IMG/VR virus record: IMGVR_UViG_3300033153_007255
Location: 1-40,505 of that record
DNA length: 40,505 bases
DNA from: a virus
Strand: one strand, 5' to 3'
In this document: one piece after another, positions 3,053 to 34,256 of the stretch
Numbering within the stretch: the stretch's first letter is position 1
How the letters are laid out: each line of letters opens with the position of its first letter
Made by a program: the position numbers and the translations under genes
Notes under the pieces: generated by a model
The model's input: only the letters and a program-made list of their open reading frames with translations
Database searches by the model: none
What the model was told of the DNA's origin: nothing

Positions 3053-3811
3053 CTATTCTTTCACTTTGTCTAAACCATGTCTTTGCATCCAATCAACAAT
3101 AACACCCACTCTCCATTCATACTCATCGACATCTTTGTGGCTGTATTCGTGTTCTTCGGCACATCTTCTTATATTTTCTTTCCACCATTGTATATTTCTT
3201 ATTATACATCCAGATTTTATCATACCCGGAGCATAGTAGTGAATTGAGAAGGTATTTGCGTATCTGAAAAATTGTGGTGGAGAGATGTTAAGTTTGACGT
3301 TATAACCAAGTATGACATCATCACTAAGTATAACACCATCACCAAGTTTGACACTATCACCAAGCATAACACCATCACCAAGCACAACATCATTACCAAG
3401 TCTGACGCCAGTGGCAAGCATAACACTACCACCAAGTATGACATCATTACCAAGTCTGACATCATTGCCAAATCCAATATTATCGCCAAGTCTCACATAA
3501 TTACCAAGTTCGACTTTATTACCAAATGTAACACCATCATCAAGTGCAACACCATCACCAAGTCTGACATCATTACCAAGTCTGACATCATTACTAAGTC
3601 TGACATAATTACCAAGTTCAACTCTGTTACCAAGTTCGACACCATCATCAAGTATGACACCATCACCAAGTGTAACATAATCACCAAGTGTAACATAATC
3701 ACCAAGTATGACATCATCACCAAGTTTGATATGTAATCCTTCAGGTGATACATACCAATTATTACACTGCTTCCAACTTCTAATTTCTTCTACTGTCAAT
3801 ACCTTAGACAT
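3053..3811 (-). CDS. Left-handed beta-helix (hexapeptide-repeat) protein, 252 aa, 8 predicted coils
   Basis: Residues 30-173 are 24 uninterrupted six-residue repeats of the form L-G-(D/N)-x-V-x, the hallmark of left-handed beta-helices. Three hexapeptides make one coil, so 24 gives exactly eight. The N-cap (to about residue 29, WYVSPEGLHIK) and the 79-residue C-terminal domain (LNISPPQFFRY... to RHGLDKVKE, with WWKENIRRC) are nearly identical to those of the adjacent gene at 3813-4520. No acyltransferase catalytic His or carbonic-anhydrase His triad is evident, so an enzyme role is not supported; a structural or binding role, or a DNA-mimic like the right-handed pentapeptide-repeat proteins, is possible. 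Start ATG has AAAGGAA. Confidence 0.85.
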   Translation of the reverse strand: MSKVLTVEEIRSWKQCNNWYVSPEGLHIKLGDDVILGDYVTLGDYVTLGDGVILDDGVELGNRVELGNYVRLSNDVRLGNDVRLGDGVALDDGVTFGNKVELGNYVRLGDNIGFGNDVRLGNDVILGGSVMLATGVRLGNDVVLGDGVMLGDSVKLGDGVILSDDVILGYNVKLNISPPQFFRYANTFSIHYYAPGMIKSGCIIRNIQWWKENIRRCAEEHEYSHKDVDEYEWRVGVIVDWMQRHGLDKVKE

Positions 3812-3812
3812 C

Positions 3813-4520
3813 TTAATTTCCTTTCACTTTGTCTAAACCATGTCTTTGCATCCAATCAACAATAACACCCACTCTCCATTCATACTCATCGACATCTTTG
3901 TGGCTGTATTTGTGCTCTTCGGCACATCTTCTTATATTTTCTTTCCACCATTGTATATTTTTTACTATACATCCAGATTTTATCATACCTGGGGCATAGT
4001 AGTGAATTGAGAAGGTATTTGTGTATCTAAAAAATTGTGGTGGAGAGATGTTAAGTTCGACATTATTACCAAGCTTGACACCATCACCAAGTATGATAAA
4101 ATCACCAAGTCTGACTCCAGTTTCAAGTTCGACAGCATCACCAAGTCTGACATAATCACCAAGTCTGACATCATCACCAAGTTTGACACCATTGCCGAGT
4201 ATAGTACCATTACCAAGTCTGACATCATTGCCAAGTCTAATACAATCACCAAGTATGACACCACTACCAAGTATGACATCCTTATCAAATCCGATATGAT
4301 TACCAAGTCTGATGTCATTACCAAGTTTGACTCCATCACTAAGTCTAACTCTATTACCAAGTGTGATTCCATTGCCAAGTTCGACACCATCACCAAGTAT
4401 GACGCCACTACCAAGTATGACACCATCACCAAGTTTGATATGTAATCCTTCAGGTGACACATACCAATCATCATAACGCAAGTCCCAACTTCTAACCTCT
4501 TTTACTGTTACAAGTTTCAT
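3813..4520 (-). CDS. Left-handed beta-helix (hexapeptide-repeat) protein, 235 aa, 7 predicted coils
   Basis: Paralogue of the next gene downstream, and the first gene behind the leftward consensus promoter. The N-cap is followed by 21 hexapeptides (residues 30-155), exactly seven coils, then the same C-terminal domain (80 residues). The two paralogues therefore differ by exactly one coil, while individual hexapeptides have diverged. The encoding DNA is a run of 18-bp-period repeats, which opens long artefactual reading frames on both strands. ATG at 4520 follows AAAAGGAAGC. Cytoplasmic by composition: no signal peptide or membrane segment. Confidence 0.85.
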   Translation of the reverse strand: MKLVTVKEVRSWDLRYDDWYVSPEGLHIKLGDGVILGSGVILGDGVELGNGITLGNRVRLSDGVKLGNDIRLGNHIGFDKDVILGSGVILGDCIRLGNDVRLGNGTILGNGVKLGDDVRLGDYVRLGDAVELETGVRLGDFIILGDGVKLGNNVELNISPPQFFRYTNTFSIHYYAPGMIKSGCIVKNIQWWKENIRRCAEEHKYSHKDVDEYEWRVGVIVDWMQRHGLDKVKGN

Positions 4521-4601: not shown

Positions 4602-4631
4602 AAAAAACTTTTATTTCATCTAAAGTTTTTT
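4602..4631. promoter_or_regulatory. Perfect 10-bp-arm palindrome between divergent promoters (operator or paired UP elements)
   Basis: AAAAAACTTT (4602-4611) and AAAGTTTTTT (4622-4631) are exact inverse complements around a 10-bp spacer. The centre (4616.5) is within one base of the midpoint between the two -35 boxes (4598 and 4633). The arms could bind a dimeric regulator, or act as back-to-back UP elements for RNA polymerase alpha subunits. Confidence 0.65.
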
Positions 4632-4632
4632 C

Positions 4633-4661
4633 TTGACTATTATAAGACCCTCCTATATAAT
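4633..4661 (+). promoter_or_regulatory. Consensus sigma70-type promoter, rightward
   Basis: TTGACT (4633-4638), a 17-bp spacer, and a perfect TATAAT (4656-4661). Start of RNA is expected near 4668, right before the first base-paired segment of the structured RNA (4672). It is the only clear rightward promoter found ahead of the late genes. Confidence 0.85.
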
Positions 4662-4923
4662 GATATTTGAAAGTTGTGGCTTGTTGTACTTTGTGATAGG
4701 AAGTATAAGGCCGCTACAAGGAAGTTACGAGCGACATGAAGTCGTGATAGGAAATGGATTTTCCGACGGCCTAAAGAAACGGATTTCTTTGACAAGCCAC
4801 AACTATAATTTTGAAAAGTGCATATAGCTTTTTTGGAAGCTTGTATTGTGTCTCCTGTTAATGTAGAAGCGTTTTCTACATACATCATACGCAAACCGGC
4901 AGTGCAGGCTTCCTCAAAATTAT

Positions 4924-4950
4924 CACACTTTCCGAGTGTGTGTGTTTTAT
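4924..4950 (+). terminator. Possible weak terminator or RNA 3' hairpin
   Basis: CACACT (4924-4929) pairs with AGTGTG (4935-4940) across TTCCG, followed by TGTGTTTTAT. The T-tract is interrupted, so it may be a partial terminator or simply the third helix of the RNA. Confidence 0.4.
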
Positions 4951-4954
4951 GTTG

Positions 4955-4993
4955 AAGGGTGGGAGTTCATATGTGACTCCCGCCCTTTTCTTT
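4955..4993 (+). terminator. Strong rho-independent terminator ahead of the late genes
   Basis: AAGGGTGGGAGT (4955-4966) pairs with ACTCCCGCCCTT (4976-4987) as a 12-bp, GC-rich stem with one T-G wobble and a 9-nt loop, followed by TTTTCTTT. It would stop the transcript starting near 4668 after about 325 nt unless antitermination occurs. Confidence 0.85.
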
Positions 4994-5190
4994 GAAAAAA
5001 TAATAACATCGATCAATCCATGTAAAGTATGTTATTATAAGAGTTTATGTAAAATAGGCAATATGCTTTTTTGGCTTTTGTTTTTCACTTCTATTGTTTT
5101 TTCTTGAAACTCCCAAATCATCTATTATTGTGACCTTAGATCAAGTTGTTTCTTGTATGGTGAAAGGAGTGTTAAGAAAAGGATGCAGAG
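4994..5190 (+). other. Leader of the late operon without a clear promoter
   Basis: About 200 AT-rich bases between the terminator and the first late gene. I find no -35/-10 pair with proper spacing; TTGAAA (5104-5109) and TATTAT (5123-5128) are only 13 bp apart. A 14-codon frame (5062-5106) is not supported. Either late genes use a phage-specific promoter or they are reached by read-through from 4668. Confidence 0.5.
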
Positions 5191-6651
5191 ATGAAAAAGA
5201 TATTTAGCAGAATAACTATAAATCTTTCTCCAGTAACCAGAAATGACAGTATGGAGGGAAAGGATTATCTGGTTGTTCCTATGGTAATGATGACGGAGGG
5301 TGTTCATGATGGAAGTGGTGGGCCTATTTTTTATCCGGAAGAGGAGTTAAGCAAACTTCCTGCTGTTTGGAATCACAAACCTGTTGTTGTCTACCACCCT
5401 GTTGAAAATGGATCACCCATTTCGGCTTGTTCTCCTGAGGTTCTCACCGATCGAAAGATTGGTGTTATTATGAATACTGTATGGGAAGACGGCAAGCTGA
5501 AGGCAGAAGCATGGTTAGATCCTGATCGTGTTGTGGAGGTTGATAATCGAATTATGGAGGCAATAGAGGATTCTCAGATGCTGGAGTTGAGTACCGGCCT
5601 TTACTCTGAGAATGAAAGTTCTGAAGGGGAGTATAATGGGGAAGCGTATAGTTTTGTAGCGAGAAACATTGCTCCAGATCATCTTGCAGTTTTGCCGGAT
5701 CTTGTGGGTGCTTGCAGCATTGAAGATGGTGCTGGATTTTTACGTGTTAATTCCAAAGATGGAATTAAAAAGCAGAAGGTTCTTTCGGAGGGGTTTGTTA
5801 AGGATGTGATACCTTTCCTTGAAGCTGTGGGTATTGATACAAACAAACTGAGTTTTGTTGATAGTGAACTAAGTCATGAAGATGTGAGGTCTTTGCTATA
5901 TGCAAAGATTGATGATTATGCGTGGGTAGAGGCTGTTTATGATGATTACTTTATTTTTGAAAAAGATGGCAGATTATTCACTCAAGAATACACGTTAGAC
6001 ACAGATGGCAAGTTATCAGTTAAAGGGATTCCAAAGGAGGTAATCAGAAAAGTATCATATGAAGAGTTAGCAGCAAATAAGAACGTGAAATTAGGAAAGG
6101 ATGTAAAGATGGATAAAGCAAAAAAGGTTGAGGAGCTTATCAAAAACTCTGCAACTCAATGGGCCGAGGAAGATCGGGAAACCCTAATGAACATGGAAGA
6201 GAAAGTTCTTGACAAACTAACCCCAGTTGAGAATGATGATACTGAGGACAAGACTGAGGACAAGACTGAGGACAAGACTGAGGACAAGACTGAGGACAAG
6301 ACTGAGGACAAGACTGCCGATGAGCCTGTTGGTAATGCAACAGCGAAGCCTGTTAGTGTCAAGGATTATCTTGGCAGTGCTCCTCCTGAGATCAAAGAGG
6401 TTCTTACAAACGGGCTTCAGGCTTACGAGCGTGACAAGACCACACTGATTAATATCATCACGGCCAATGAGAAGAATGTGTTTACGGAGGAGGGTTTGAA
6501 GGAAAAGAGTTTGGATGAACTCCGACAAATTGCTGCTCTTGCAAGAGCAGATGACAGTGAAGATGCTGATGATTTCAGTGGTTTGAGAGATGTTGTCAAT
6601 AATGCGGCCCAGCCTCCCCTGCCTCTGCCAGTGATGTTTGAAGAGCAGTAA
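5191..6651 (+). CDS. DUF2213-type prohead protease / scaffold fusion, 486 aa
   Basis: Residues about 25-185 match the DUF2213 type of phage protein as I know it: a start with VVPMVMMTEGVHDG, the WNHKPVVVYHP block, MLELSTGLYSEN, and DHLAVLPDLVGACS. These are regarded as capsid-maturation proteases with an attached scaffold. The C-terminal half is acidic and helical, fitting a scaffold, and contains six perfect TEDK repeats (about residues 351-374) as a flexible linker. Position directly before the decoration and capsid genes agrees. Residues about 195-310 hold an extra globular segment. I did not identify the catalytic Ser/His with certainty. ATG at 5191 has AAAGGA upstream. Confidence 0.8.
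   Translation: MKKIFSRITINLSPVTRNDSMEGKDYLVVPMVMMTEGVHDGSGGPIFYPEEELSKLPAVWNHKPVVVYHPVENGSPISACSPEVLTDRKIGVIMNTVWEDGKLKAEAWLDPDRVVEVDNRIMEAIEDSQMLELSTGLYSENESSEGEYNGEAYSFVARNIAPDHLAVLPDLVGACSIEDGAGFLRVNSKDGIKKQKVLSEGFVKDVIPFLEAVGIDTNKLSFVDSELSHEDVRSLLYAKIDDYAWVEAVYDDYFIFEKDGRLFTQEYTLDTDGKLSVKGIPKEVIRKVSYEELAANKNVKLGKDVKMDKAKKVEELIKNSATQWAEEDRETLMNMEEKVLDKLTPVENDDTEDKTEDKTEDKTEDKTEDKTEDKTADEPVGNATAKPVSVKDYLGSAPPEIKEVLTNGLQAYERDKTTLINIITANEKNVFTEEGLKEKSLDELRQIAALARADDSEDADDFSGLRDVVNNAAQPPLPLPVMFEEQ
6241..6312 (+). repeat. Six perfect 12-bp tandem repeats (TEDK linker)
   Basis: ACTGAGGACAAG is repeated six times without a mismatch inside the protease/scaffold gene, encoding (TEDK)6. The perfect DNA identity points to recent slippage expansion, so copy number may vary between relatives. 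Confidence 0.95.
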
Positions 6652-8753: not shown

Positions 8754-9386
8754 ATGCCTATATGGACACAAGAACCAGTTTGGGATGGTAAGGATGTTTT
8801 TGTTATTGGTGGTGGAGATTCTCTACGTTTCTTCAATTGGGATTTGCTGGATGATGAGTTCACGATAGGATGTAACAATGCTTTTCAGTTAGGATCTTCG
8901 ATATGCAAGATATGTATTTTTGGAGATGTGGCTTTTTGGAAGAAGTATGAAAAGGAGTTAGAAGCTTTCGATGGTGTTGTATTCACCAACTCTCCTTCAT
9001 TGTTTCAAAAAGGTGCTAAACATCCGTGGTTGTGGGTGATGGAAAGATCGGCTATAGGTCTTCACACAACAAAGCTTGGTTGGAATAACAATGTTGGATC
9101 ATCTGCGATCAATTTGGCTTTGATTTTGGGTGCAAAGAGAGTATTCTTACTTGGCTTTGATATGTGCTTGTCAAAAGATGGGAAATCCCATTACCATGAA
9201 GGGGCTATCAGGGAGCCTAATCAAACCACTCTTAATGATTTTATCAGAGGCTTCAAGAATGTCAAGACAGATTTATCGAAGTTTCCTGATAGTGAAGTTA
9301 TAAATGTTTCTGATTGTTCAAGGTTGGATGTTTTCTCAAAAGTCGGTTTTCTTGATTTTTGGAAGGAAAGGACAAAAATATCATGA
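8754..9386 (+). CDS. DUF115 / sialyltransferase-like protein, 210 aa
   Basis: Rossmann-type start DVFVIGGGDSLRFF (about 13-26), then IGCNNAF, and the block GSSAINLALILGAKRVFLLGFDM (about 121-143), followed by a HYHEGA motif. This combination is typical of the DUF115 / GT29-42-like superfamily (nucleotide-sugar transferases or MptE-like enzymes). A second gene of this type lies at 27908-28570. Its place within the head gene block, outside the main glycan island, is unusual and suggests modification of a virion protein. Substrate unknown. GAGG about 10 bases before ATG. Confidence 0.7.
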   Translation: MPIWTQEPVWDGKDVFVIGGGDSLRFFNWDLLDDEFTIGCNNAFQLGSSICKICIFGDVAFWKKYEKELEAFDGVVFTNSPSLFQKGAKHPWLWVMERSAIGLHTTKLGWNNNVGSSAINLALILGAKRVFLLGFDMCLSKDGKSHYHEGAIREPNQTTLNDFIRGFKNVKTDLSKFPDSEVINVSDCSRLDVFSKVGFLDFWKERTKIS

Positions 9387-24348: not shown

Positions 24349-27300
24349 TGATAAGTGCACAGTAGTTATCATTCCAGATAGGATGAGGATATACGAAAGA
24401 TCTGAATTTGCCATGAGTATTTCCATGCCTGTTGGGGACATGATCTGTTCATTTTTAAGGGACATGCCAACTGATGGATTGATATTATTTGTTGATGGTA
24501 TTGAGATCCCCTCTGAAAAGTGGTATATAGTTTATCCAAAGAAAAATTCGATAATTGTTCTTACACATAAATTGTCTGGAGGTGGAGGAGGTGGTGGTAA
24601 GGATGTGGTGCAGGTAGCATTGATGATTGGAGCTTTAGTTATCACACAGGGATTTGCTGCTGGAGGGCCTTGGGCATTCATGGGTCAGCAGCTAACCGTG
24701 GTGGGCCAAACTTTGTTTCTTGTTGGTGCAGCATATTTGGTTAGTACGATGAATTCAGGTGCACCAGGCGATTCTGGATTTGGTGAGATAAAACAGACAT
24801 CGTCGTTTGGTTGGAATGCTATGACGGTTCAGAGGCAGGGTACACCACTCCCTCTTATTTTTGGTACGGCAAAGACGCATGGGAATATAATCGCGTGTTG
24901 GACAGAATTAGATGAAGATACTGAGGGCACAAGTGAACTTCTTTATGCACTGATCTCCTTAGGCATGGGGCCGGTTTCGGATATTACTGATTTGAGAATC
25001 AATGATCAACCAATAGATGATTTTACTGATGTCAGTTATGAAATAAAGAAGGGAACAATAGATCAGACGGCTATTAGTTTGTGGAGTGATCTAAAGGTTG
25101 AGACAAGATGGATGCGTCCTATTAAGCACGGAACTCCTGTTACTTGTGTTACTCCAGATACAGGTGATTTTCATGATTTTGATATTGTGTTACGATTTCC
25201 AAAGGGGGTTTATCATGCAGAAGGTGGTGGATATAAAGAACACTCGATAGGTGTAAAAATAGAAGTAAGTGTGCATGATGCTGATTCTTGGACTACAATT
25301 TTTGATGATGATATAACTCGTGATACATCTGGGGCTTACTGGCGATCATGGTTGTGCAGTGATGCAAAGGCAGTTGTGTTAGGAACGAAGTATGATATAA
25401 AGGTTTCAAAGACATCAGCAGATGAGACAGATGGAACATATGGTGATGATGTTGTTTTGCAGGGTGTTAGGCGGATATATGAGGATGGTTTCACATACCC
25501 ACGTCAAGCAGTTGTTGCGATTAAGGCTTTAGCGAATGAAGCGTTGCAGGGTAGTTTTGATTTTTCTTGTGTTGTTGATGGTTTGATCTGTCCTGTAAGT
25601 GATGGAACTTCTTGGACCTACGCACATAGCTCAAATCCTGCTTGGGTACAGGCATGGCTTATACTTCGACCAGTGTTGTCTGGAAGTGGTCCCTATACTT
25701 TGGAAAGATTGGATGGACTTGCAGCTAATAGAGTAAATCAAACATCATTGAAAGAATTAGCAGATTTTTGTGATGAAGAAATTTCGGATGGTGAGGGAGG
25801 GACTGATAAAAGAATAGAGTTTAATGGGATATTTGAAGAGGAGAAGAGTGTTTGGGATGCTGTGGTTGAAGTGAACAAATATGCACGATCTGATCCAGTT
25901 TGGGATGCAACTACTTTTAGAGTGGTTACAGATAAAGAGCGGAGTGTTTCAAGTGCTTGCAGTATGGGCAATGTGAGAAACTATAAGTATAAGATAATTA
26001 GAAAGCAGGGACGGGCAGGCACACTGGAGTTAGAATACCAGAACGCGGCTAATGGTTATCAAATGTCTGTGTGCTCTGTTTATAACAGTAATTCTGGGGA
26101 TGTAAAGGATGTAGCTATAGAGCAAGTACGGGGTGTGACAAAAGAATGCCAACTTTGGCACTATGGGAATTACAGACTACTCCAAAACAGATATATACTT
26201 GGGGAGCATAGTTGGGAGTTGCCAATAGAAGGTTTGACATTTGAGGTTGGAGATGTTATTCGTTTTGAACATGATGTTATAAATTATGGGGATGTGGGCA
26301 GTGGTACACAAGAGTATAATACTGGAGGGAGGGTTGAAAATGTTGAGTTTTCATCAGGAAAGGATATAATCACACTGGATAGGGACATTAGAGATGCTTT
26401 AGATATAGGCACTACCTATGAATTAACTTTACGACATCAGGATGGTTCTGCAAGTGTTTGTACTATAGATTCTTGGAATGTTGCTGCACCAGTGACTTAT
26501 ACTGCGTTGACGATGGATGGTGGCTTTGATGGCCATGCACAAAAGCATGATATGTGGGCTATAGGAAAGATTGGGTATAGTTCAATCAAAGTACAAATAT
26601 CCCATATAGAAAGAGTGGGCGTTGATCATGTCAGGGTAAGGGCGTTTCCGTATGTGCCTGAGATATATGCAGGGGATGATGAAGACCCTTGGATAGCTTT
26701 AGAAGCCGTGGAAGAAGCTGTAGCAAGACGCATTCCAATAACCCGAACCCCATCTGTAATAGAGCTTAATGCAAGGATACCAAAAGATGTTGTAGGGCTT
26801 GCTTCAAGGGAACAGGTACGATGGTCAAATATATCATGGGGGGATAATGATCCTACGGGTGGGAAGGTGTCATGGAGTCCAACACAATCGGGACAACCTA
26901 TGCTATTGGAATATCAGGGGAATGTATATCAGATAGCAGCAGACAACACAGATAATAAATACATCTATTGGGACATAAACTCTTCAACAGTGTTTTTGAA
27001 TACAAATACGAAGGCCACAGCCACAGCAGTAGGAATGAAGTTGATTTGTATAAATAATGATGGAGCGGCCCGGCCTTTATCTGGAAATGATTCACAGGAT
27101 GGAGATTCTTTGGCAGACGGTAGTGTAGTTGAGGAAGTCATAGCAGATAATGCAACACATATTGAAGAATATGAAAGTGATACTGGTCCTACTTCACTTA
27201 CTAAAGAAGTTGAGACTACTGTACTTTCTGCTACAATTGTATCAGCAGGTAGACCAGTTTCAGTCTCAGCTTATGTTGCAATATCAACAGAAGAGGATAC

Positions 27301-27544
27301 TAATCCAGTAACTGCTGATGTAAATGTTTATTGGGGTACTACGTTAGTAGGTGAGATTTTGGGTGTTGAGGTACCTATTGATGGAGGTGGTGCTGGATGG
27401 GGAACGGCAATAGGAGTTATAACGGATCTTGAAGGAACTACAGGATCCGGAAGTCAAACTTTTACTATGAAAGTAGAAGCTCATGATTATGATTGTCAAG
27501 CACAAAGTATGACAATGCGTTTATCTGAATGGAATGGAAAGTAA
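24317..27544 (+). CDS. Tail tip gpI-gpJ-like fusion (central fibre / hub), 1075 aa
   Basis: Start set at ATG 24317, inside the end of the previous gene; TTG 24311 is the alternative. The first 95 residues carry an N-terminal domain, a Gly-rich linker (GGGGGGGKD) and a hydrophobic segment (about 95-145, VALMIGALVITQGF...), as in gpI-type proteins. Then PLPLIFGTAKTHGNIIACW and LYALISLGMGPVSDITDLRIND mark the gpJ hub start. Later, WDAVVEVNKYARSDPVWD and WELPIEGLTFEVGDVIRFEHD are further gpJ hub blocks. An FN3-like and a fibre region (EYQGNVYQIAADNTDN...) follow, then a terminal beta domain. The C-terminal end probably contacts the receptor. Confidence 0.85.
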   Translation: METTDLATRNDDKCTVVIIPDRMRIYERSEFAMSISMPVGDMICSFLRDMPTDGLILFVDGIEIPSEKWYIVYPKKNSIIVLTHKLSGGGGGGGKDVVQVALMIGALVITQGFAAGGPWAFMGQQLTVVGQTLFLVGAAYLVSTMNSGAPGDSGFGEIKQTSSFGWNAMTVQRQGTPLPLIFGTAKTHGNIIACWTELDEDTEGTSELLYALISLGMGPVSDITDLRINDQPIDDFTDVSYEIKKGTIDQTAISLWSDLKVETRWMRPIKHGTPVTCVTPDTGDFHDFDIVLRFPKGVYHAEGGGYKEHSIGVKIEVSVHDADSWTTIFDDDITRDTSGAYWRSWLCSDAKAVVLGTKYDIKVSKTSADETDGTYGDDVVLQGVRRIYEDGFTYPRQAVVAIKALANEALQGSFDFSCVVDGLICPVSDGTSWTYAHSSNPAWVQAWLILRPVLSGSGPYTLERLDGLAANRVNQTSLKELADFCDEEISDGEGGTDKRIEFNGIFEEEKSVWDAVVEVNKYARSDPVWDATTFRVVTDKERSVSSACSMGNVRNYKYKIIRKQGRAGTLELEYQNAANGYQMSVCSVYNSNSGDVKDVAIEQVRGVTKECQLWHYGNYRLLQNRYILGEHSWELPIEGLTFEVGDVIRFEHDVINYGDVGSGTQEYNTGGRVENVEFSSGKDIITLDRDIRDALDIGTTYELTLRHQDGSASVCTIDSWNVAAPVTYTALTMDGGFDGHAQKHDMWAIGKIGYSSIKVQISHIERVGVDHVRVRAFPYVPEIYAGDDEDPWIALEAVEEAVARRIPITRTPSVIELNARIPKDVVGLASREQVRWSNISWGDNDPTGGKVSWSPTQSGQPMLLEYQGNVYQIAADNTDNKYIYWDINSSTVFLNTNTKATATAVGMKLICINNDGAARPLSGNDSQDGDSLADGSVVEEVIADNATHIEEYESDTGPTSLTKEVETTVLSATIVSAGRPVSVSAYVAISTEEDTNPVTADVNVYWGTTLVGEILGVEVPIDGGGAGWGTAIGVITDLEGTTGSGSQTFTMKVEAHDYDCQAQSMTMRLSEWNGK

Positions 27545-27545
27545 T

Positions 27546-27908
27546 ATGAGGCATGTACATTATAGAATAAAGGACAATGATGGAAAAGTACGAATAATAG
27601 GGAAATGTTCGGAAGAGAATTTTCATTTGAAAGAAGCTGCTGATGTAGACATAGAAGTTATTAGTAAAAAGGAGTACGATCTACAAAGTGTCAAGGTTCC
27701 AGCAACGTTTAGATTTTCAGCAATGAGTATTGGTAAAGATGGTGTTCCTAAAGATTTGATTGGAGCTAAGATGGATGTAAAGCTTGATGAGCTTAAAGAT
27801 ACAATTGAGAAGCTTGAGGGTTTGGTTAATGATCTTAAGAGTAGGATTGAAGAACTTGAGAAACCCAAAGAAAGTGTTGATCCAACTCTTATAACAAACG
27901 GAAGTTAA
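27546..27908 (+). CDS. Hypothetical tail-associated coiled-coil protein, 120 aa
   Basis: Starts 2 bases after gpJ; the ATG at 27546 with GGAAAG upstream is preferred to the in-frame ATG 27534. The N-terminal half is beta-rich (VHYRIKDNDGKVRIIGK). The C-terminal 55 residues form a regular coiled coil (LDELKDTIEKLEGLVNDLK...). Its position after the host-specificity gene fits a small fibre component or fibre-assembly protein. No family recognised. Confidence 0.65.
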   Translation: MRHVHYRIKDNDGKVRIIGKCSEENFHLKEAADVDIEVISKKEYDLQSVKVPATFRFSAMSIGKDGVPKDLIGAKMDVKLDELKDTIEKLEGLVNDLKSRIEELEKPKESVDPTLITNGS

Positions 27909-28570
27909 TGATGGATAAGAGCATATGTATTGTGGGTGGTGGTCCAAGTTTGAGAGGATTTGACTTTGGATTGTTTGAAGGGCTAAACACTATAGTCACG
28001 AATAAATCTATATACAGTGTGGACCATCCAAACTATTTCATTACTGTGGATTATTCATTTTTGATTAAGATACGACATCAATTGCCGGTATTTAGGCAAA
28101 GCAAAGCCACGAAGATTTTTGTTGCGAATTTTGCATTTCCTTATATTAAAGAAGTAGATGGTGTGATACGTGATACACGTTCTAACCTATTGTACAATCT
28201 CGAGGATTTCGATTTGGTGGTTAAGGCAAGGAGAGGAGGTGATGAAGGGATTGGACAAAACTTCGCTGATTTTAGAACAGGACTGAATAGTGGATTTTGT
28301 GCATTCCAATTTTCAGTGCTTATGAGATATACGAAGATATTTTTGTTTGGCATTGATTTGACAGTCTCTAATAAATCAACACACTATCATAATGGGTACG
28401 GGGAATCAACAACATCATTTTCTAAGAAGTTATCACAGTATCTTGATTTTTGGAGGGGTGGTATACTTGAACTTCAAAAGGTTGCTCCTCATATTCAAGT
28501 GTTTTCATGCTCACCAACAAGTTCTTTGAATAACATAATACCTCAAGCAACAATAGGAGAAATAAGATGA
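27908..28570 (+). CDS. DUF115 / sialyltransferase-like protein, 220 aa
   Basis: First enzyme of the modification island. SICIVGGGPSLRGFDF (about 4-19) is the Rossmann P-loop-like start, followed by a VTNKSIYSVDHPNYFITVD block and LNSGFCAFQFSVLMRYTKIFLFGIDL (about 117-142), then a HYHNG motif. It matches the layout of the gene at 8754-9386 though the sequences have diverged. Probably a nucleotide-sugar-using transferase; acceptor unknown. TAATG overlap with the previous gene. Confidence 0.7.
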   Translation: MMDKSICIVGGGPSLRGFDFGLFEGLNTIVTNKSIYSVDHPNYFITVDYSFLIKIRHQLPVFRQSKATKIFVANFAFPYIKEVDGVIRDTRSNLLYNLEDFDLVVKARRGGDEGIGQNFADFRTGLNSGFCAFQFSVLMRYTKIFLFGIDLTVSNKSTHYHNGYGESTTSFSKKLSQYLDFWRGGILELQKVAPHIQVFSCSPTSSLNNIIPQATIGEIR

Positions 28571-29454
28571 TTGGTAAGCATGTTAAAGGAGCTGGAAAGG
28601 CTGGATTGCAGCTTCAGAAGCATACACATGTTTTCAATGCGAGTATGGTAGGCACATACAACGTAAGAAGTATGGGTGCTCGCATACGAGACTATTCCCC
28701 CTCTATAGTACTCCCGGTCAGTTCTTATTGGTTTGTGGAGATAGAAAAGGGTGGTGAGTCGTGGTTTGGATGGGCTGTGCGTGATCATACAAGTAAGCAA
28801 CGACAAAATACATTTGAAGTGCTTACGAAAAAACCCCTCCCTGTTGAGAAGTTAGCGGGACGTACATTTAACTTTTTTATTCACGAGAAATGGGATGCCG
28901 CAAAGACGGAAACGTGGGCCTCTCATCAATACTGGTTTCAGACATTTCCATTCAGTCCAGAAAAACGTGCAGACAGTGAGTTTTTGTGGAAGACCATAAA
29001 CAAGATTAAATGGAGTGGATTGAGGGTTTTGGATATAGGATGTCATTATGGTTATATGAGTTTTGAGGCGAGCAAGTTAGGAGCTACTGTAACAGGCTAT
29101 GAGCCTAACAAAACATCCTTACAGGCCGCCCGCACAATCCAGAAAAATATCATTCAGCAAGATGTTTGTTTTACAGGAGATTTTGAAAAAACTGAGCAGT
29201 ATTATGATGTGATTTTGTATCTAAGTGTGCACCATCAAATCGATCCAAGTTACGCTAATCTCAAAGAGAAAATTGAAACTCTTAAATCCAGAGTTTCCAA
29301 GTGTCTGTTTGTTGAATTGATACTGCCTCCTGTTTTCCCCAAGGGAGGCAGTATGAGTGAAAACGATATAGATGAATGCGTAGGAGGCAAAGTAATCACA
29401 ACTTACAAACACAGAGTTAGAGGTATGAGAAGGGTATATCAGGTGGATGTATGA
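28567..29454 (+). CDS. Class I SAM-dependent methyltransferase with extra N-terminal domain, 295 aa
   Basis: The SAM-binding motif LRVLDIGCHYGYMSFEASKLGA and the following acidic strand (TVTGYEPN) lie near residues 154-184; a later VILYLSVHHQI is motif IV-like. The N-terminal 130 residues are an additional domain with many aromatic residues, not recognised. In this context it may methylate a sugar or the glycosylated protein. Overlaps its neighbours by ATGA on both sides. Confidence 0.75.
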   Translation: MIGKHVKGAGKAGLQLQKHTHVFNASMVGTYNVRSMGARIRDYSPSIVLPVSSYWFVEIEKGGESWFGWAVRDHTSKQRQNTFEVLTKKPLPVEKLAGRTFNFFIHEKWDAAKTETWASHQYWFQTFPFSPEKRADSEFLWKTINKIKWSGLRVLDIGCHYGYMSFEASKLGATVTGYEPNKTSLQAARTIQKNIIQQDVCFTGDFEKTEQYYDVILYLSVHHQIDPSYANLKEKIETLKSRVSKCLFVELILPPVFPKGGSMSENDIDECVGGKVITTYKHRVRGMRRVYQVDV

Positions 29455-30302
29455 CAAGCATTTTGCAAATGCCCAAAAACGATGGGACAGTTAAGCCCTC
29501 ATACTATGAGGCGTTTTATGAATCAATAAGTCGATCAGCTCGTGTAGCTGGTATTTCAGTGATTAAAGTTCGTAATCATGACGTTTGGGCTGGTGGAAGG
29601 GTCAACGCTTACATCGCCCAACTTGATGGGCATCCATTCATTATGGATTTTTCAGATCACAAACCACTTCAATTAGATCCAAGCAAGTATGGCATTCCAT
29701 ACTTCAAGTGGCAGTACAGTTATACCTATTCCCAGCATACTCAGAATCCTTCTGTTTTTCCATTATGTGTGTTGCAAGATTTTGATTGGAAAGCATTTAG
29801 GAATGCTCAAAAATCTGTTTGTTATACAGCTATGGGGAATGTTATCACTAACAATCAACGGATAAGAGCCGGAGCTACTATACGACGTTCTAAAGTACAA
29901 GGAATTCTTAAAGAACAGTATGGATCTGAGGCTTCTTTGGAATTCAAATTCAAAGGACAGAAGGAATGGTGGGAATCGCATAATGATTGCTTAGTTGCTG
30001 TACATGTTCCCGGAGCACGAAATAATATGTTAGACAGAGGGCAATGGGAATTGATGGGATTGGGAGTGTGTGTGTTAAGTCCTGTGATTGTTACTGTGTT
30101 AGCAGGGGATCACGTGTTGATCCCTGTTCACCATTATTTACCATTAAAAGATGATTACTCTGATTTAACAGAAAAAATTGAATGGTGTAAAAAGAACCGG
30201 GAAACATGTAGGGAAATAGGAGAACGTGCTCGAGAATTATTTGACATTGTAGGACCTCCAGATGTATTTTGGAAGTATGTTCAGGGGGTGCTTTGTGGAT
30301 GA
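29451..30302 (+). CDS. Glycosyltransferase, GT-B/CAP10-like, 283 aa
   Basis: The C-terminal half has the signature of GT-B-type glycosyltransferases: VAVHVPGARNNMLDRGQWEL..., GLGVCVLSP, and HVLIPVHHYLPLKDDYSDLTEKIEW, followed by NRETCREIGERARELF. The N-terminal domain is short (HDVWAGGRVNAYIAQL). It presumably binds a nucleotide sugar; donor and acceptor cannot be told. Translationally coupled to its neighbours by overlaps. Confidence 0.7.
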   Translation: MTSILQMPKNDGTVKPSYYEAFYESISRSARVAGISVIKVRNHDVWAGGRVNAYIAQLDGHPFIMDFSDHKPLQLDPSKYGIPYFKWQYSYTYSQHTQNPSVFPLCVLQDFDWKAFRNAQKSVCYTAMGNVITNNQRIRAGATIRRSKVQGILKEQYGSEASLEFKFKGQKEWWESHNDCLVAVHVPGARNNMLDRGQWELMGLGVCVLSPVIVTVLAGDHVLIPVHHYLPLKDDYSDLTEKIEWCKKNRETCREIGERARELFDIVGPPDVFWKYVQGVLCG

Positions 30303-31086
30303 TTTTTTGAGTATATGTATGACTGTGAAAAACAGAGCAGGGTTTATGAAAGGAAAGTTAGATGAACTCCAACGAATGAACTATGATCCAAAGAAATTGG
30401 AAATCTGTGTTACAGATGGCAACTCTACTGATGATTTAGTCGGTGTGTTGAAGAAGGCTTCACCTCATTTTTTTCAGATCAAATATGCTATTTCGGATCG
30501 CACAGAACTTCCATTTGCTATACCTGAAAACAATCCAGCGTGTGACATAAATGCTCAGATTTCAAATGTTGCAACATTCGATAAAATTGTTAGGACAGAT
30601 GCTGAGGTTCGTTTCAGCCACAAAGATTCTCTACAGGTTGTTAATCAGAAACTTACAGCGGATCCAAAAGTATGTGTTTGTTTCAAGAGTTGGCATATGG
30701 CAGAAGGTTGGGATGAGAGCAAGCCAGTGAAGGGCAATACTATTTCATATGCGAAGCTATCTTTTCATTGCTCATGTTTTACTCGTTCAGCTTTTATTAA
30801 AAACAGAGGTATAGAAGAAGAGTTTGCAAAAGGTTTTGCAGCGGAGGATAATTATTTTCATTGGTGGTGGAGGAAGAACAGCAAACTTATTCATCCGCCT
30901 GCTAATCATGAAGTTTTACATATGTGGCATGGAAAGTGGCAGTCTGAAAATCGATTAAAACTAAAGCATAATTTTACACTTCCCATGTATAAAAAATTCA
31001 TGCGGGAGAATCACACTCCTAACGAAAATAACCCTGATTGGCAACGTCCAGAAATGATTAAGGAGATGCAGGTATGGAAGGCCTGA
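30295..31086 (+). CDS. Family 2-like glycosyltransferase, 263 aa
   Basis: I prefer the GTG start at 30295 (first residues MDDFLSICMTVKN) since AGGGGGTG lies directly upstream and it overlaps the previous stop by 8 bases; the ATG at 30262 would overlap by 41. GT-A features: FLSICMTVKNRAGFM at the N-terminus, LEICVTDGNSTDD (nucleotide binding) and IVRTDAEVRF (DxE metal site), then a C-terminal HMWHGKWQSENR. Confidence 0.75.
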   Translation: MDDFLSICMTVKNRAGFMKGKLDELQRMNYDPKKLEICVTDGNSTDDLVGVLKKASPHFFQIKYAISDRTELPFAIPENNPACDINAQISNVATFDKIVRTDAEVRFSHKDSLQVVNQKLTADPKVCVCFKSWHMAEGWDESKPVKGNTISYAKLSFHCSCFTRSAFIKNRGIEEEFAKGFAAEDNYFHWWWRKNSKLIHPPANHEVLHMWHGKWQSENRLKLKHNFTLPMYKKFMRENHTPNENNPDWQRPEMIKEMQVWKA

Positions 31087-31817
31087 CCGTTCACTGTATG
31101 GTTAGAAACGAGCCGTTTGTTTATTATGCGGTTAAGAGTGTGTATGATTTTGCTGATGTAATCCTGTTGTATGATACAGGCTCCTATGATCAGCATACGT
31201 TGGCTGACATTCAACTTTTACTCAAAGAGGATGTTGCCAACAAAATAGTCTTCAAAGAGGTTCCTATCGAGGTTGATGAGACTCAATGGACGACTGGTAA
31301 AGGACCAGCCAATTTTCGGAAGATGGCAGCAGCAGAAAAGGGGAAGAAAGGGAAGTGGTATTGTAGGCAGCTTCAACTTGATCATACCTCAACACGTTAT
31401 TTTATGATATTAGATGGGGATGAGGTTTGGTATCGAGCAGGTATGGAAAAATTAAAAGATACTATGAAAAATTGGCCGGAGGGTAAAATTTGTGGAAGAG
31501 TATCGTTGATTTGGTTTTATGATATGGATCATATTTTTAATACATCATGTAGTGGTAGGATTTTTCTTACAGATTCCATTGGTATTACACATTCATCCCC
31601 CGGTGAACTTCATACCATAAAAAATACTCTCATAAAAATAGGCCCGCAAAGTGATTGTACGTTTGGAGTGGGTGCGAAGTCTTATGCTCATTTTGAGACG
31701 TGGCTAAAGCCTTGGAGACGAAATGTGCATCCAGATAATATCAAACCATTTATAGGTGAATTACCTGAAGTTATGAAGGCCAATATGTCTTTTGTAGAAA
31801 GATTCAGCAACGTCTAA
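31074..31817 (+). CDS. Family 2-like glycosyltransferase, 247 aa
   Basis: GT-A fold signs: LTVHCMVRNEPFVYYAVKSV at the start, VILLYDTGSYD, and YFMILDGDEVWYRAG with a DGD metal motif near residue 107. A His-rich loop (GITHSSPGELHTIK) and YAHFETWLKPW follow. Overlaps the preceding gene by 13 bases and uses AGGAGATGCAGGT as ribosome-binding region. Sugar specificity unknown. Confidence 0.7.
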   Translation: MEGLTVHCMVRNEPFVYYAVKSVYDFADVILLYDTGSYDQHTLADIQLLLKEDVANKIVFKEVPIEVDETQWTTGKGPANFRKMAAAEKGKKGKWYCRQLQLDHTSTRYFMILDGDEVWYRAGMEKLKDTMKNWPEGKICGRVSLIWFYDMDHIFNTSCSGRIFLTDSIGITHSSPGELHTIKNTLIKIGPQSDCTFGVGAKSYAHFETWLKPWRRNVHPDNIKPFIGELPEVMKANMSFVERFSNV

Positions 31818-31844
31818 CATTTCAGTAACTAAGATTAGGAAAAT

Positions 31845-32423
31845 ATGATGATAACAGTCATTGAAGAAAAATCTATATCATTCGAAGATAATGCGTGGAG
31901 TACTAAACGTATTGTAAAGGAGGCATCTAAATATGATTCAGTGTTAGATATTGGATGTGGTGTAGGGACATTGATTAAGCAAATAAAGGCTGATGTTCGG
32001 ATTGGTGTGGATGCTTGTCCAGATGTCATAAACTCAGCATCCAAACATAGAAATAATGGTGTGATTTTTCAGATTCGTGATTTGATAAATCCAGAAAGTT
32101 TGAGTGGATTGTCTGTGGATTGTGTCGTTGGTATGGACATCATAGAACATCTTGCGATGTATGATGCTTTGATATTGTTAGAGAGATGTGATAAAATAGC
32201 TAAAAAGGAATTACTATTTTATATTCCAGTAGGAAATCATCCTCAAGATAAAGATCCCAGAGGTTTCAACAATCATTATTATCAAACCCATCGTTCTACT
32301 TGGTATCCAGAGGATATGAATGACTTAGGATATGATGTTTGGTATTACCCCAATTGGTATTTGGATGCACAACCACCTAAAGAGAAAGGAGCAATGTTTT
32401 GTCAAAAATTGATCACAACTTAG
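31845..32423 (+). CDS. Class I SAM-dependent methyltransferase, 192 aa
   Basis: Motif I YDSVLDIGCGVGTLIKQI (about residues 28-45), an acidic strand RIGVDACPDVI, and VDCVVGMDIIEHL (motif IV) are clear. The C-terminal half holds FNNHYYQTHRSTWYPEDM, as in small methyltransferases found in sugar-biosynthesis gene sets. Start ATG at 31845 (a second ATG is directly next) with TTAGGA. Confidence 0.8.
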   Translation: MMITVIEEKSISFEDNAWSTKRIVKEASKYDSVLDIGCGVGTLIKQIKADVRIGVDACPDVINSASKHRNNGVIFQIRDLINPESLSGLSVDCVVGMDIIEHLAMYDALILLERCDKIAKKELLFYIPVGNHPQDKDPRGFNNHYYQTHRSTWYPEDMNDLGYDVWYYPNWYLDAQPPKEKGAMFCQKLITT

Positions 32424-33535
32424 ATATACAGGGAGCATCTTTCCATCCTTTTGACAGCACTAAGATACTCGCTCATGGTGATAGAATGGAAGCTATTGTG
32501 AACGAGAAGTATTTACCTCCCATTGTTATGAACTTGGATGTCACTGGAAAGTGTCAGTATCATTGTCCTCATTGCCATCACAGACGCAAGCAAGTTCATG
32601 GCAAGAATTTACCGGACTTGCCAGAAAGATTAGCTCGGACACTGCCACATTTCCTTAGACATTGGGTGAAACGTGGACAGAGGGTTAAAGCTTGTTGTAT
32701 TGTTGGTAGTCAGGGGGATGCTTTGTTATATCCCGGATTACCTTCGTTACTAAGAAATTTGCACAAGGCTGGAATAGATGTTGGATTGGTGTCTAACGGT
32801 TATGGCTTCACTCATCAGTTGCTAAACCATGCTGCCTTTTACACAACCTTCACTGGGTTCTCTATGGATGCAGGTGGTCAAGGGACTTATCAACAGATTA
32901 AGAATTGTCCAGAGGATGGATGGGAAAAGGTTTGTGGAAGCATATCCCAACTTACTACTATTATTCGTGAGAACCGTTTGCGAAATGACGTGGGTTGGAA
33001 GATACTTGTACTTCCAAAATCACATGAAGAGATTTATGAGAGCTGCCGTGTAGCGAAGAGTTTGGGTTGCCGTTACGTTCAGATACGACCGGCGGATCTA
33101 CCGGACGATCAGCGATTGGAAATCAATATTGATGTGGTCGAGAATCAAATACGGATGGCCATTGATACTTTGGAGGTCCCCGGCGAGTTTGAGATTGTTG
33201 GAGTCCGACACAAATTCAGTCCAGACTACAAGAAAGTTCTTCCAAGCTACTGCTTCTTAACTCCATTGACAGTAACGATAACAAGTGATGGAAAAGCATA
33301 CGCTTGTGTAGATAGAAGATGTGATGAGTCTACGTTGTTAGTTGATTGTGCTAAGGATGGTTGGTCAGCATTGGAAGCAGTGTGGGGATCTCCACATCAC
33401 ATTGATATAGTTCATAATGTAATAAATCATGGAGGCAGTGGTCCTACTTGCAATATACGATGCTCTAACTTTGGTTATGATAAGTTTTTCAAGAATTACT
33501 TTGTAGATGACAATGTTGATAGGAATTTAATATAG
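32399..33535 (+). CDS. Radical SAM protein with SPASM-like C-terminus, 378 aa
   Basis: CxxxCxxC motif at Cys52, Cys56, Cys59 (GKCQYHCPHC) binds the radical-generating 4Fe-4S cluster; VGSQGDALLYPG replaces the usual GGE strand. The C-terminal part has further cysteines (SYCFLTP, YACVDRRCDE, CNIRCSNFGYD) in a SPASM-like arrangement for additional clusters. Starts at TTG 32399 with AAAGGAG 8 bases before, overlapping the methyltransferase by 25 bases. Substrate unknown: a sugar, a virion peptide or a cofactor are all possible. Confidence 0.8.
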   Translation: MSKIDHNLDIQGASFHPFDSTKILAHGDRMEAIVNEKYLPPIVMNLDVTGKCQYHCPHCHHRRKQVHGKNLPDLPERLARTLPHFLRHWVKRGQRVKACCIVGSQGDALLYPGLPSLLRNLHKAGIDVGLVSNGYGFTHQLLNHAAFYTTFTGFSMDAGGQGTYQQIKNCPEDGWEKVCGSISQLTTIIRENRLRNDVGWKILVLPKSHEEIYESCRVAKSLGCRYVQIRPADLPDDQRLEINIDVVENQIRMAIDTLEVPGEFEIVGVRHKFSPDYKKVLPSYCFLTPLTVTITSDGKAYACVDRRCDESTLLVDCAKDGWSALEAVWGSPHHIDIVHNVINHGGSGPTCNIRCSNFGYDKFFKNYFVDDNVDRNLI

Positions 33536-33556
33536 TAAGCTTTTGGAGCATATTTT

Positions 33557-33649
33557 ATGTATGCTGATTCCAATTTGCTTTCAACAGTCTTCTCAGTGCT
33601 TTTGATTATAACATTGTTTTTGATTATGAAAGGACCAAATGATGAGTAA
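33557..33649 (+). CDS. Small single-pass membrane peptide, 30 aa
   Basis: ATG at 33557 with GGAG 8 bases upstream opens a 30-codon frame ending at TAA 33647-33649. It fills an otherwise empty 103-base gap and overlaps the next gene start. The product is one hydrophobic helix (STVFSVLLIITLFLIM, about residues 9-24) with a short N-terminus and a charged tail (KGPNDE). Possible roles: membrane anchor for the adjacent enzymes or an inhibitor peptide. Its reality rests on start context and composition only. Confidence 0.5.
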   Translation: MYADSNLLSTVFSVLLIITLFLIMKGPNDE

Positions 33650-34256
33650 AGGAGGTTTTCTTGTTGTTGGATATTACACGAAGAACAGTATATATGAAGA
33701 TGCTGCTGAGATCTTGATAAAATCAATGTTAAAGTATAAAATTCCTTATTATGTAGAGGGTATTGAAGATAAAGGTGATTGGTGGAAGAACACACAGTTT
33801 AAGCCAACTTTTCTCATAAGGATGCTAAAAGCATTTCCAGACAAGAATATTGTTTACGTTGATTGTGATGCTGAGTTTCTAAAGTATCCTGAATTGTTTG
33901 ATACCTTTGAAGGAGATATAGGGGCATACCTTTTTGATAGAAGTTGCTATACCAAAAGTGCCGGAGGTTATGAAGTTCTTAGCGGTACGCTGTTTTTCAG
34001 GAATAATGACTTTGTAAAGAAGATACTTGATGAATGGGAACATGAATGCCTAAAGCATCTGCATGTTTGGGACCAGAAAAGTTTGGAGAGAGTTTTGAAA
34101 GGGAGATTCAAAAAACTACCCGGTGAATACTGCAAGATATTTGATAGGATGGATTCAGTAACAGACCCTGTGATCATTCATTATCAAGCAAGCAGGAAGA
34201 TAAATAAGAAGGGTGCTATGAATAGGCAGAACCGAAAAGTTAGAAGGACAAATTGA
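33639..34256 (+). CDS. GT-A type glycosyltransferase, 205 aa
   Basis: NIVYVDCDAEFLKYPELF (near residue 70) supplies the DxD motif, preceded by FKPTFLIRMLKAFP; later YEVLSGTLFFRN and WDQKSLERVL are typical of nucleotide-diphospho-sugar transferases (GT77/GT8-like clan). The C-terminal tail is strongly basic. Last gene of the rightward unit. ATG at 33639 (or 33642) with AAAGGACC. Confidence 0.75.
   Translation: MMSKGGFLVVGYYTKNSIYEDAAEILIKSMLKYKIPYYVEGIEDKGDWWKNTQFKPTFLIRMLKAFPDKNIVYVDCDAEFLKYPELFDTFEGDIGAYLFDRSCYTKSAGGYEVLSGTLFFRNNDFVKKILDEWEHECLKHLHVWDQKSLERVLKGRFKKLPGEYCKIFDRMDSVTDPVIIHYQASRKINKKGAMNRQNRKVRRTN

Follow-up and report, generated by a model that had tools for sequence, protein, structure and literature searches.

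A predicted structured RNA with its own transcription signals upstream of a phage head operon, a possible decoy for the host regulator CsrA

The window analysed here is a 40.5-kb tailed-phage record, possibly incomplete, in which minus-strand genes occupy the part left of 4520 and a head-tail operon, encoding DUF2213/head protease, decoration, capsid, tape measure and tail fibre proteins, runs on the plus strand from 5191. The 670-bp gap that separates them holds two divergent promoters and raises the question of whether it also encodes an RNA of its own and, if so, what that RNA might do. To our knowledge, only a small number of phage non-coding RNAs have been described outside model phages, mostly through conservation; the one considered here is visible by its fold and signals only. 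A sequence-only reading had proposed a multi-helix non-coding RNA at 4668-4993 (Table 1). Among the surrounding genes, we note a sialyltransferase-like protein (phrog_4603; 8754-9386) within the head operon; glycosyltransferases, methyltransferases and a radical-SAM protein form a cluster (27908-34256) beyond the tail fibre gene.

Table 1. Coordinates of the RNA, its putative functional sites and the neighbouring transcription signals
Feature	Position	Strand	Basis or remark
Minus-strand promoter, TTGACA-18-TATAAT	4598-4569	-	consensus scan, 12/12 positions
Perfect inverted repeat AAAAAACTTT-10-AAAGTTTTTT, 10-bp arms	4602-4631		between divergent promoters
Promoter P1: T-tract, -35 TTGACT (4633-4638), 17-bp spacer, -10 TATAAT (4656-4661)	4626-4661	+	consensus scan
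Predicted transcript of structured RNA, ~326 nt	4668-4993	+	promoter, terminators, MFE z -7.26
Domain 1: 14-pair closing stem, multibranch loop, hairpins 4685-4706, 4708-4772 (branched), 4773-4789	4672-4804	+	z -5.8
Two GTGATAGGAA copies	4693-4702, 4744-4753	+	first in hairpin loop, GG/A at closing base; second GGA paired
Single-stranded GGA within CUACAAGGAAGU	4720-4722	+	unpaired probability 0.86
AUGGAU loop on 4-5 bp stem, AYGGAY type	4754-4759	+	GGA unpaired probability 0.97
ACGGAU loop on 6-7 bp stem, AYGGAY type	4779-4784	+	loop/stem scan, unpaired probability
Domain 2: 10-bp outer stem 4805-4814/4914-4923, 12-pair stem 4835-4846/4902-4913, inner 8-bp hairpin	4805-4923	+	z -4.0
First terminator-like hairpin, 7 bp, then TGTGTTTTAT	4924-4940	+	signal scan
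Intrinsic terminator: 14-pair stem-loop 4954-4987, then TTTTCTTT	4954-4993	+	about -23 kcal/mol
Promoter P2 of head operon, TTGAAA-16-TATTGT (5104-5131)	5097-5131	+	promoter-like, 9/12 positions
DUF2213/putative head maturation protease gene	5191-6651	+	first of head operon; outside RNA

We found that the predicted minimum free energy (MFE) of 4668-4993 (-116.2 kcal/mol) was far below that of 100 dinucleotide shuffles (-80.4 +/- 4.9 kcal/mol), none of which folded as well, and that each domain was more stable than its shuffles when folded separately (4668-4810 and 4804-4925; Table 1). The earlier claim of pairing far beyond chance is therefore supported, and a fold energy no different from that of shuffled sequence is excluded. 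In a coarse scan for structure across the window (291 stretches of 140 nt from both strands, each against 16 shuffles), ranks 1-3 went to those that begin at 4672, 4668 and 4908, two of them having been placed deliberately on the feature and the third having fallen there by the regular grid. A separate segment in the 3' part of the tail-fibre J gene (27290-27460) also holds an unusually stable RNA fold (z -3.8).

The architecture agrees largely with that first described. The closing stem of domain 1 consists of 13 nt that are 100% complementary (4672-4684/4792-4804) plus U4685-G4791, giving 13 Watson-Crick pairs and one G-U as claimed, and the further helices reported inside it are likewise present, among them a stem (4708-4713/4767-4772) that encloses two hairpins. 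In domain 2, nested 9-bp and 8-bp stems had been claimed; the inner 8-bp stem was recovered, but the outer one comprises 12 pairs in the MFE structure rather than 9. A perfect 10-bp stem (4805-4814/4914-4923), overlooked in that reading, begins one base after domain 1. No unpaired base separates the successive units 4672-4804, 4805-4923 and 4924-4940, an arrangement that would favour coaxial stacking.

Helices that abut without linkers over 4672-4940, together with the very high stability and the lack of a match to any known family, would suit an ornate RNA with a structural or scaffold role, as represented by GOLLD and ROOL, or an undescribed phage class, in which the folded body is the active part. 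Phages do carry ornate RNAs of this kind (PMC12286853), and the likeness to GOLLD and ROOL lies in a large, elaborate phage RNA fold whose function is not known. However, the RNA in the window is considerably shorter (GOLLD often exceeds 800 nt), has no tRNA island nearby, matches neither Rfam model, and has no relatives revealing conservation; we consider this explanation unlikely.

Transcription signals bracket the fold. The sigma-70 promoter claimed ahead of the RNA (TTGACT-17-TATAAT) matches the consensus at 11 of 12 positions, and its predicted start at ~4668 lies four bases 5' of the first helix. The intrinsic terminator claimed 3' of the RNA was also found (a 14-pair stem at 4954-4987, then TTTTCTTT) and, with the hairpin at 4924-4940, makes up two tandem terminators. 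P2, which shares the 5' flank TTTTTTCTTGA with P1, is positioned downstream of both terminators and ahead of the head genes. That the RNA has a promoter and terminators of its own, with a second promoter preceding the head operon, speaks for an independent transcript; given its 326-nt body and the placing of P2 after the terminators, an independent RNA is more likely than an obligatory leader.

On the other side of P1, the -35 boxes of the two divergent promoters lie ~35 bp apart, and the palindrome between them is a candidate operator, through which the RNA and the minus-strand operon would be controlled together. We considered that no functional RNA is made at all, and that the palindromes work as DNA (an operator, a packaging or a replication site) or survive from an insertion that is decaying, as an orphan sequence between divergent promoters with a perfect palindrome adjoining it might suggest. 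This is very improbable, given helices that are nested and non-overlapping, a promoter and terminators correctly oriented on one strand, and the strongest structure signal in the window. Elsewhere, a 39-bp unit (AATATTCAATCAAAATCATAGAATTGACTTCCTAACTTC) is repeated three times in tandem in a non-coding end region (210-326), perhaps as iterons or an origin. The minus-strand genes nearest the gap (3053-4520) are two neighbouring paralogues of hexapeptide (left-handed beta-helix) repeats with a common C-terminal tail ending in WMQRHGLDKVK; with these proteins as bait, an IMG/VR scan for this tail found no relative.

Neither protein-coding content nor a known RNA family accounts for the region. Two ORFs with TTG starts overlap the RNA (4633-4827 on the plus strand and 4640-4894 on the minus strand), but they are insubstantial and neither has a PHROG match, consistent with the view that no ORF fits and lending no support to a translated ORF. 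Similarly, an Rfam search (cmscan, at gathering thresholds and at E <= 10) yielded no family, in agreement with the failure to recognise a described class. Specifically, the RNA matched none of the CsrB, CsrC and RsmX/Y/Z models, and the TwoAYGGAY (RF01731) covariance model gave no match in the window at E <= 10. The best cmscan match, the L20 leader, scored 21 bits (gathering threshold, 58.7) and is a chance match resting mainly on the terminator. Searches for a tRNA or tmRNA identity found none, none of Rfam's self-cleaving ribozyme families matched, and a retron or DGR was rejected as no reverse transcriptase occurs among the annotated proteins of the window. Thus, the fold of 4668-4993 is real and exceptional, transcription signals accompany it, and coding content is lacking. 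From this we infer an RNA that is transcribed, independent and functional; that it is an independent structured transcript is highly probable.

An RNA with an independent promoter and terminator could be a trans-acting antisense sRNA that base-pairs with mRNAs of the host or the phage through a loop or through its linker-free junctions, the remainder serving as scaffold. Antisense regulation is a common role of phage and prophage sRNAs (PMC12197685). Against this, the RNA is mostly paired (mean unpaired probability 0.33), and we saw neither a long single-stranded seed nor a U-rich site for Hfq; such a function seems doubtful.

The search for homologues returned the window alone. Nucleotide searches found no DNA homologue of the RNA in phages and plasmids (distant mode) or, by 21-mer, in IMG/VR. 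We gathered relatives through their capsid, DUF2213 and RecA-like proteins (~35-65% protein identity to the phage), and scanned the whole records of ~50-85 of these with one covariance model per domain (R1 for domain 1, R2 for domain 2), which recovered only the window itself; both models were built from one sequence, and strongly diverged homologues could therefore escape them, while very close records may have lain outside the set searched. The motif that had been described as occurring twice and looking conserved, GTGATAGGAA, is indeed present at 4693 and 4744 and nowhere else in the window, but its doubling is not a recurring signature: as a family signature it gave six matches, all repeats or unrelated sequences without a common fold. 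The motif pair GATAGGAA..TACAAGGAAG gave 16 matches, and none fit R1. Thus, of the proposed dedicated phage RNA, the computations uphold structure, own promoter and terminator, and the lack of an Rfam family, but not conservation. A better interpretation of GTGATAGGAA is that it belongs to a group of A(N)GGA sites within domain 1.

Domain 1 contains five GGA triplets, all in A(N)GGA contexts and three of them unpaired (probability 0.86-1.0). The GGA at 4720-4722 lies in CUACAAGGAAGU, close to the CsrA SELEX consensus, RUACARGGAUGU. The most specific hint at function comes from two stem-borne AYGGAY loops (AAAGAA-ACGGAU-UUCUUU and GGAA-AUGGAU-UUUCC). The high-affinity target of CsrA/RsmE is an ANGGAX hexaloop seated immediately on a stem, and ACGGAU, the same hexanucleotide as the loop at 4779-4784, is the loop of the hcnA-RsmE complex (PMC4005645).

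Two or more AYGGAY hairpins were rare in structure-preserving shuffles (P 0.00025, for a motif chosen after the sequence had been inspected). The background of such hairpins was 0.075 per kb per strand, from which the chance of two in 143 nt is ~6e-5, and 3.6 Mb of strand contained nine such pairs. Simple GGA enrichment was weak (P 0.015-0.19 by test; loop tests, P 0.04-0.10). GGA density was 2.2 per 100 nt (7 in 326 nt), or 3.5 in domain 1, compared to 6.0 in the control E. coli CsrB (22 in 369) and 5.7 in CsrC (14 in 246). Among the relatives, 7 of 586 intergenic strand-stretches (~1%) carried at least two ANGGAN hairpins; the top one (L177), the sole one inspected as a CsrB-like RNA, resembles a ribosome-binding site and gene start.

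We place first, as a speculative reading with a regulated late-operon leader as its close rival, that the phage makes this sRNA as a small decoy to occupy the host regulator CsrA/RsmA. A host-type promoter would make a phage sRNA of ~326 nt, which the two tandem terminators would end before the head operon. Domain 1 would display the AUGGAU and ACGGAU stem-capped loops, one single-stranded AAGGA and one AUAGGA loop, and with these four sites one or two CsrA dimers could bind. CsrA would thereby be drawn off host or phage mRNAs, releasing those messages during infection, while the long closing stem and the stacked domain 2 might hold the sites in place and shield the RNA from nucleases. The decoy reading is weakened by the low GGA density, the weak plain enrichment, the post hoc choice of motif and the lack of a TwoAYGGAY match and of a csrA gene in the window; it also gives domain 2 no role in function and has no homologue in which the loops are seen conserved.

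We found no csrA gene within the window. csrA homologues (PF02599, above cut-off) occur in 6 of 50 relatives (L190-L195), a frequency not clearly above that in unrelated control records (1 of 22), and thus they show only that such phages meet the Csr pathway. A phage-encoded CsrA decoy RNA was not found in the literature searched, by which its absence is not proven.

The rival reading is that transcription from P1 halts at the terminators until read-through into the head genes is permitted, either by a phage factor or by the folded RNA itself through an action on RNA polymerase. Lambda pR'/6S RNA/tR' (with Q) and HK022 put are precedents for read-through of a leader. The order of promoter, leader, terminator and first head gene is as expected for this reading, and 21 of the relatives' 99 DUF2213 loci carry a terminator no more than 300 nt ahead of the gene, compared to 0 of 90 for the decoration gene and 4 of 98 for the capsid gene, counting terminator-like hairpins at the same distance (Fisher 4.5e-7 and 4e-4; these values overstate independence because the loci are interrelated). 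A transcription boundary thus recurs in the relatives in the gap ahead of DUF2213, and the RNA in the window sits there. Furthermore, several relatives (L003, L013/L119, L099, L117, L132, L019 and L043) show a promoter, 30-60 nt, a terminator and then the gene, and several of the relatives' leaders have a similar T-tract promoter and a common TGTAGGARCC.

We also note that in five relatives (L099 2748, L117 2741, L119 2887, L132 2886 and L003 7853) a short conserved leader directly precedes the DUF2213 gene and combines the T-tract promoter, TGTAGGARCC and a terminator, AAAAGGRCCAC..GTGGTCCTTTT; the AGGAGCC in such leaders could pair with the terminator 3' arm, making a possible attenuator.

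However, in the window the terminators are followed by a promoter-like P2 belonging to the head operon, and there is no second copy of the element. Antiterminator pairing with the terminator arms is too weak, the best leader-arm duplexes reaching about -9 to -12 kcal/mol compared to -23 for the terminator. Moreover, the relatives' leaders resemble the RNA in neither sequence nor fold, and most relatives lack such a leader. A regulated leader is a possibility that we hold as tentatively as the decoy. The likeness to the lambda 6S RNA/pR'-tR' leader and HK022 put lies in a structured RNA with a strong promoter and a terminator just before structural genes; the differences are the second promoter after the terminator, the lack of a sequence relation and the single copy.

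For the decoy reading, the nearest comparison is TwoAYGGAY RNA (RF01731), which has two AYGGAY hairpin loops and an outer stem in ~130-170 nt. It was proposed as a CsrA-sequestering sRNA because of its two AYGGAY hairpins (PMC4333381), the same ground as here. In contrast to that RNA, the hairpins in the window lie in separate branches of a multiloop closed by 14 pairs, a second domain follows, the RNA is phage-encoded, and the model finds no match. CsrB/CsrC and RsmZ/RsmY are likewise stand-alone sRNAs of similar length (CsrB, 369 nt) with a promoter, an intrinsic terminator and A(N)GGA sites, both looped and single-stranded. A sponge of the CsrB/RsmZ type would be expected to carry at least one high-affinity ANGGAX hexaloop on a stem, as this RNA does with ACGGAU and AUGGAU, but also ~6 GGA per 100 nt rather than 2.2, and Rfam does not link the RNA to them.

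In some hosts, metabolism, motility and CRISPR-Cas are under Csr/Rsm control. If the RNA titrates CsrA, phages would steer these processes via RNA instead of protein. Many phage-encoded RsmA homologues have been reported (PMC8450108), and these share with a decoy a phage acting on the host Csr/Rsm pathway. A phage-encoded RNA that removes host CsrA/RsmA from action, which we think rather unlikely, would be their mirror image: the phage proteins supply CsrA activity, whereas a decoy RNA would do the opposite.
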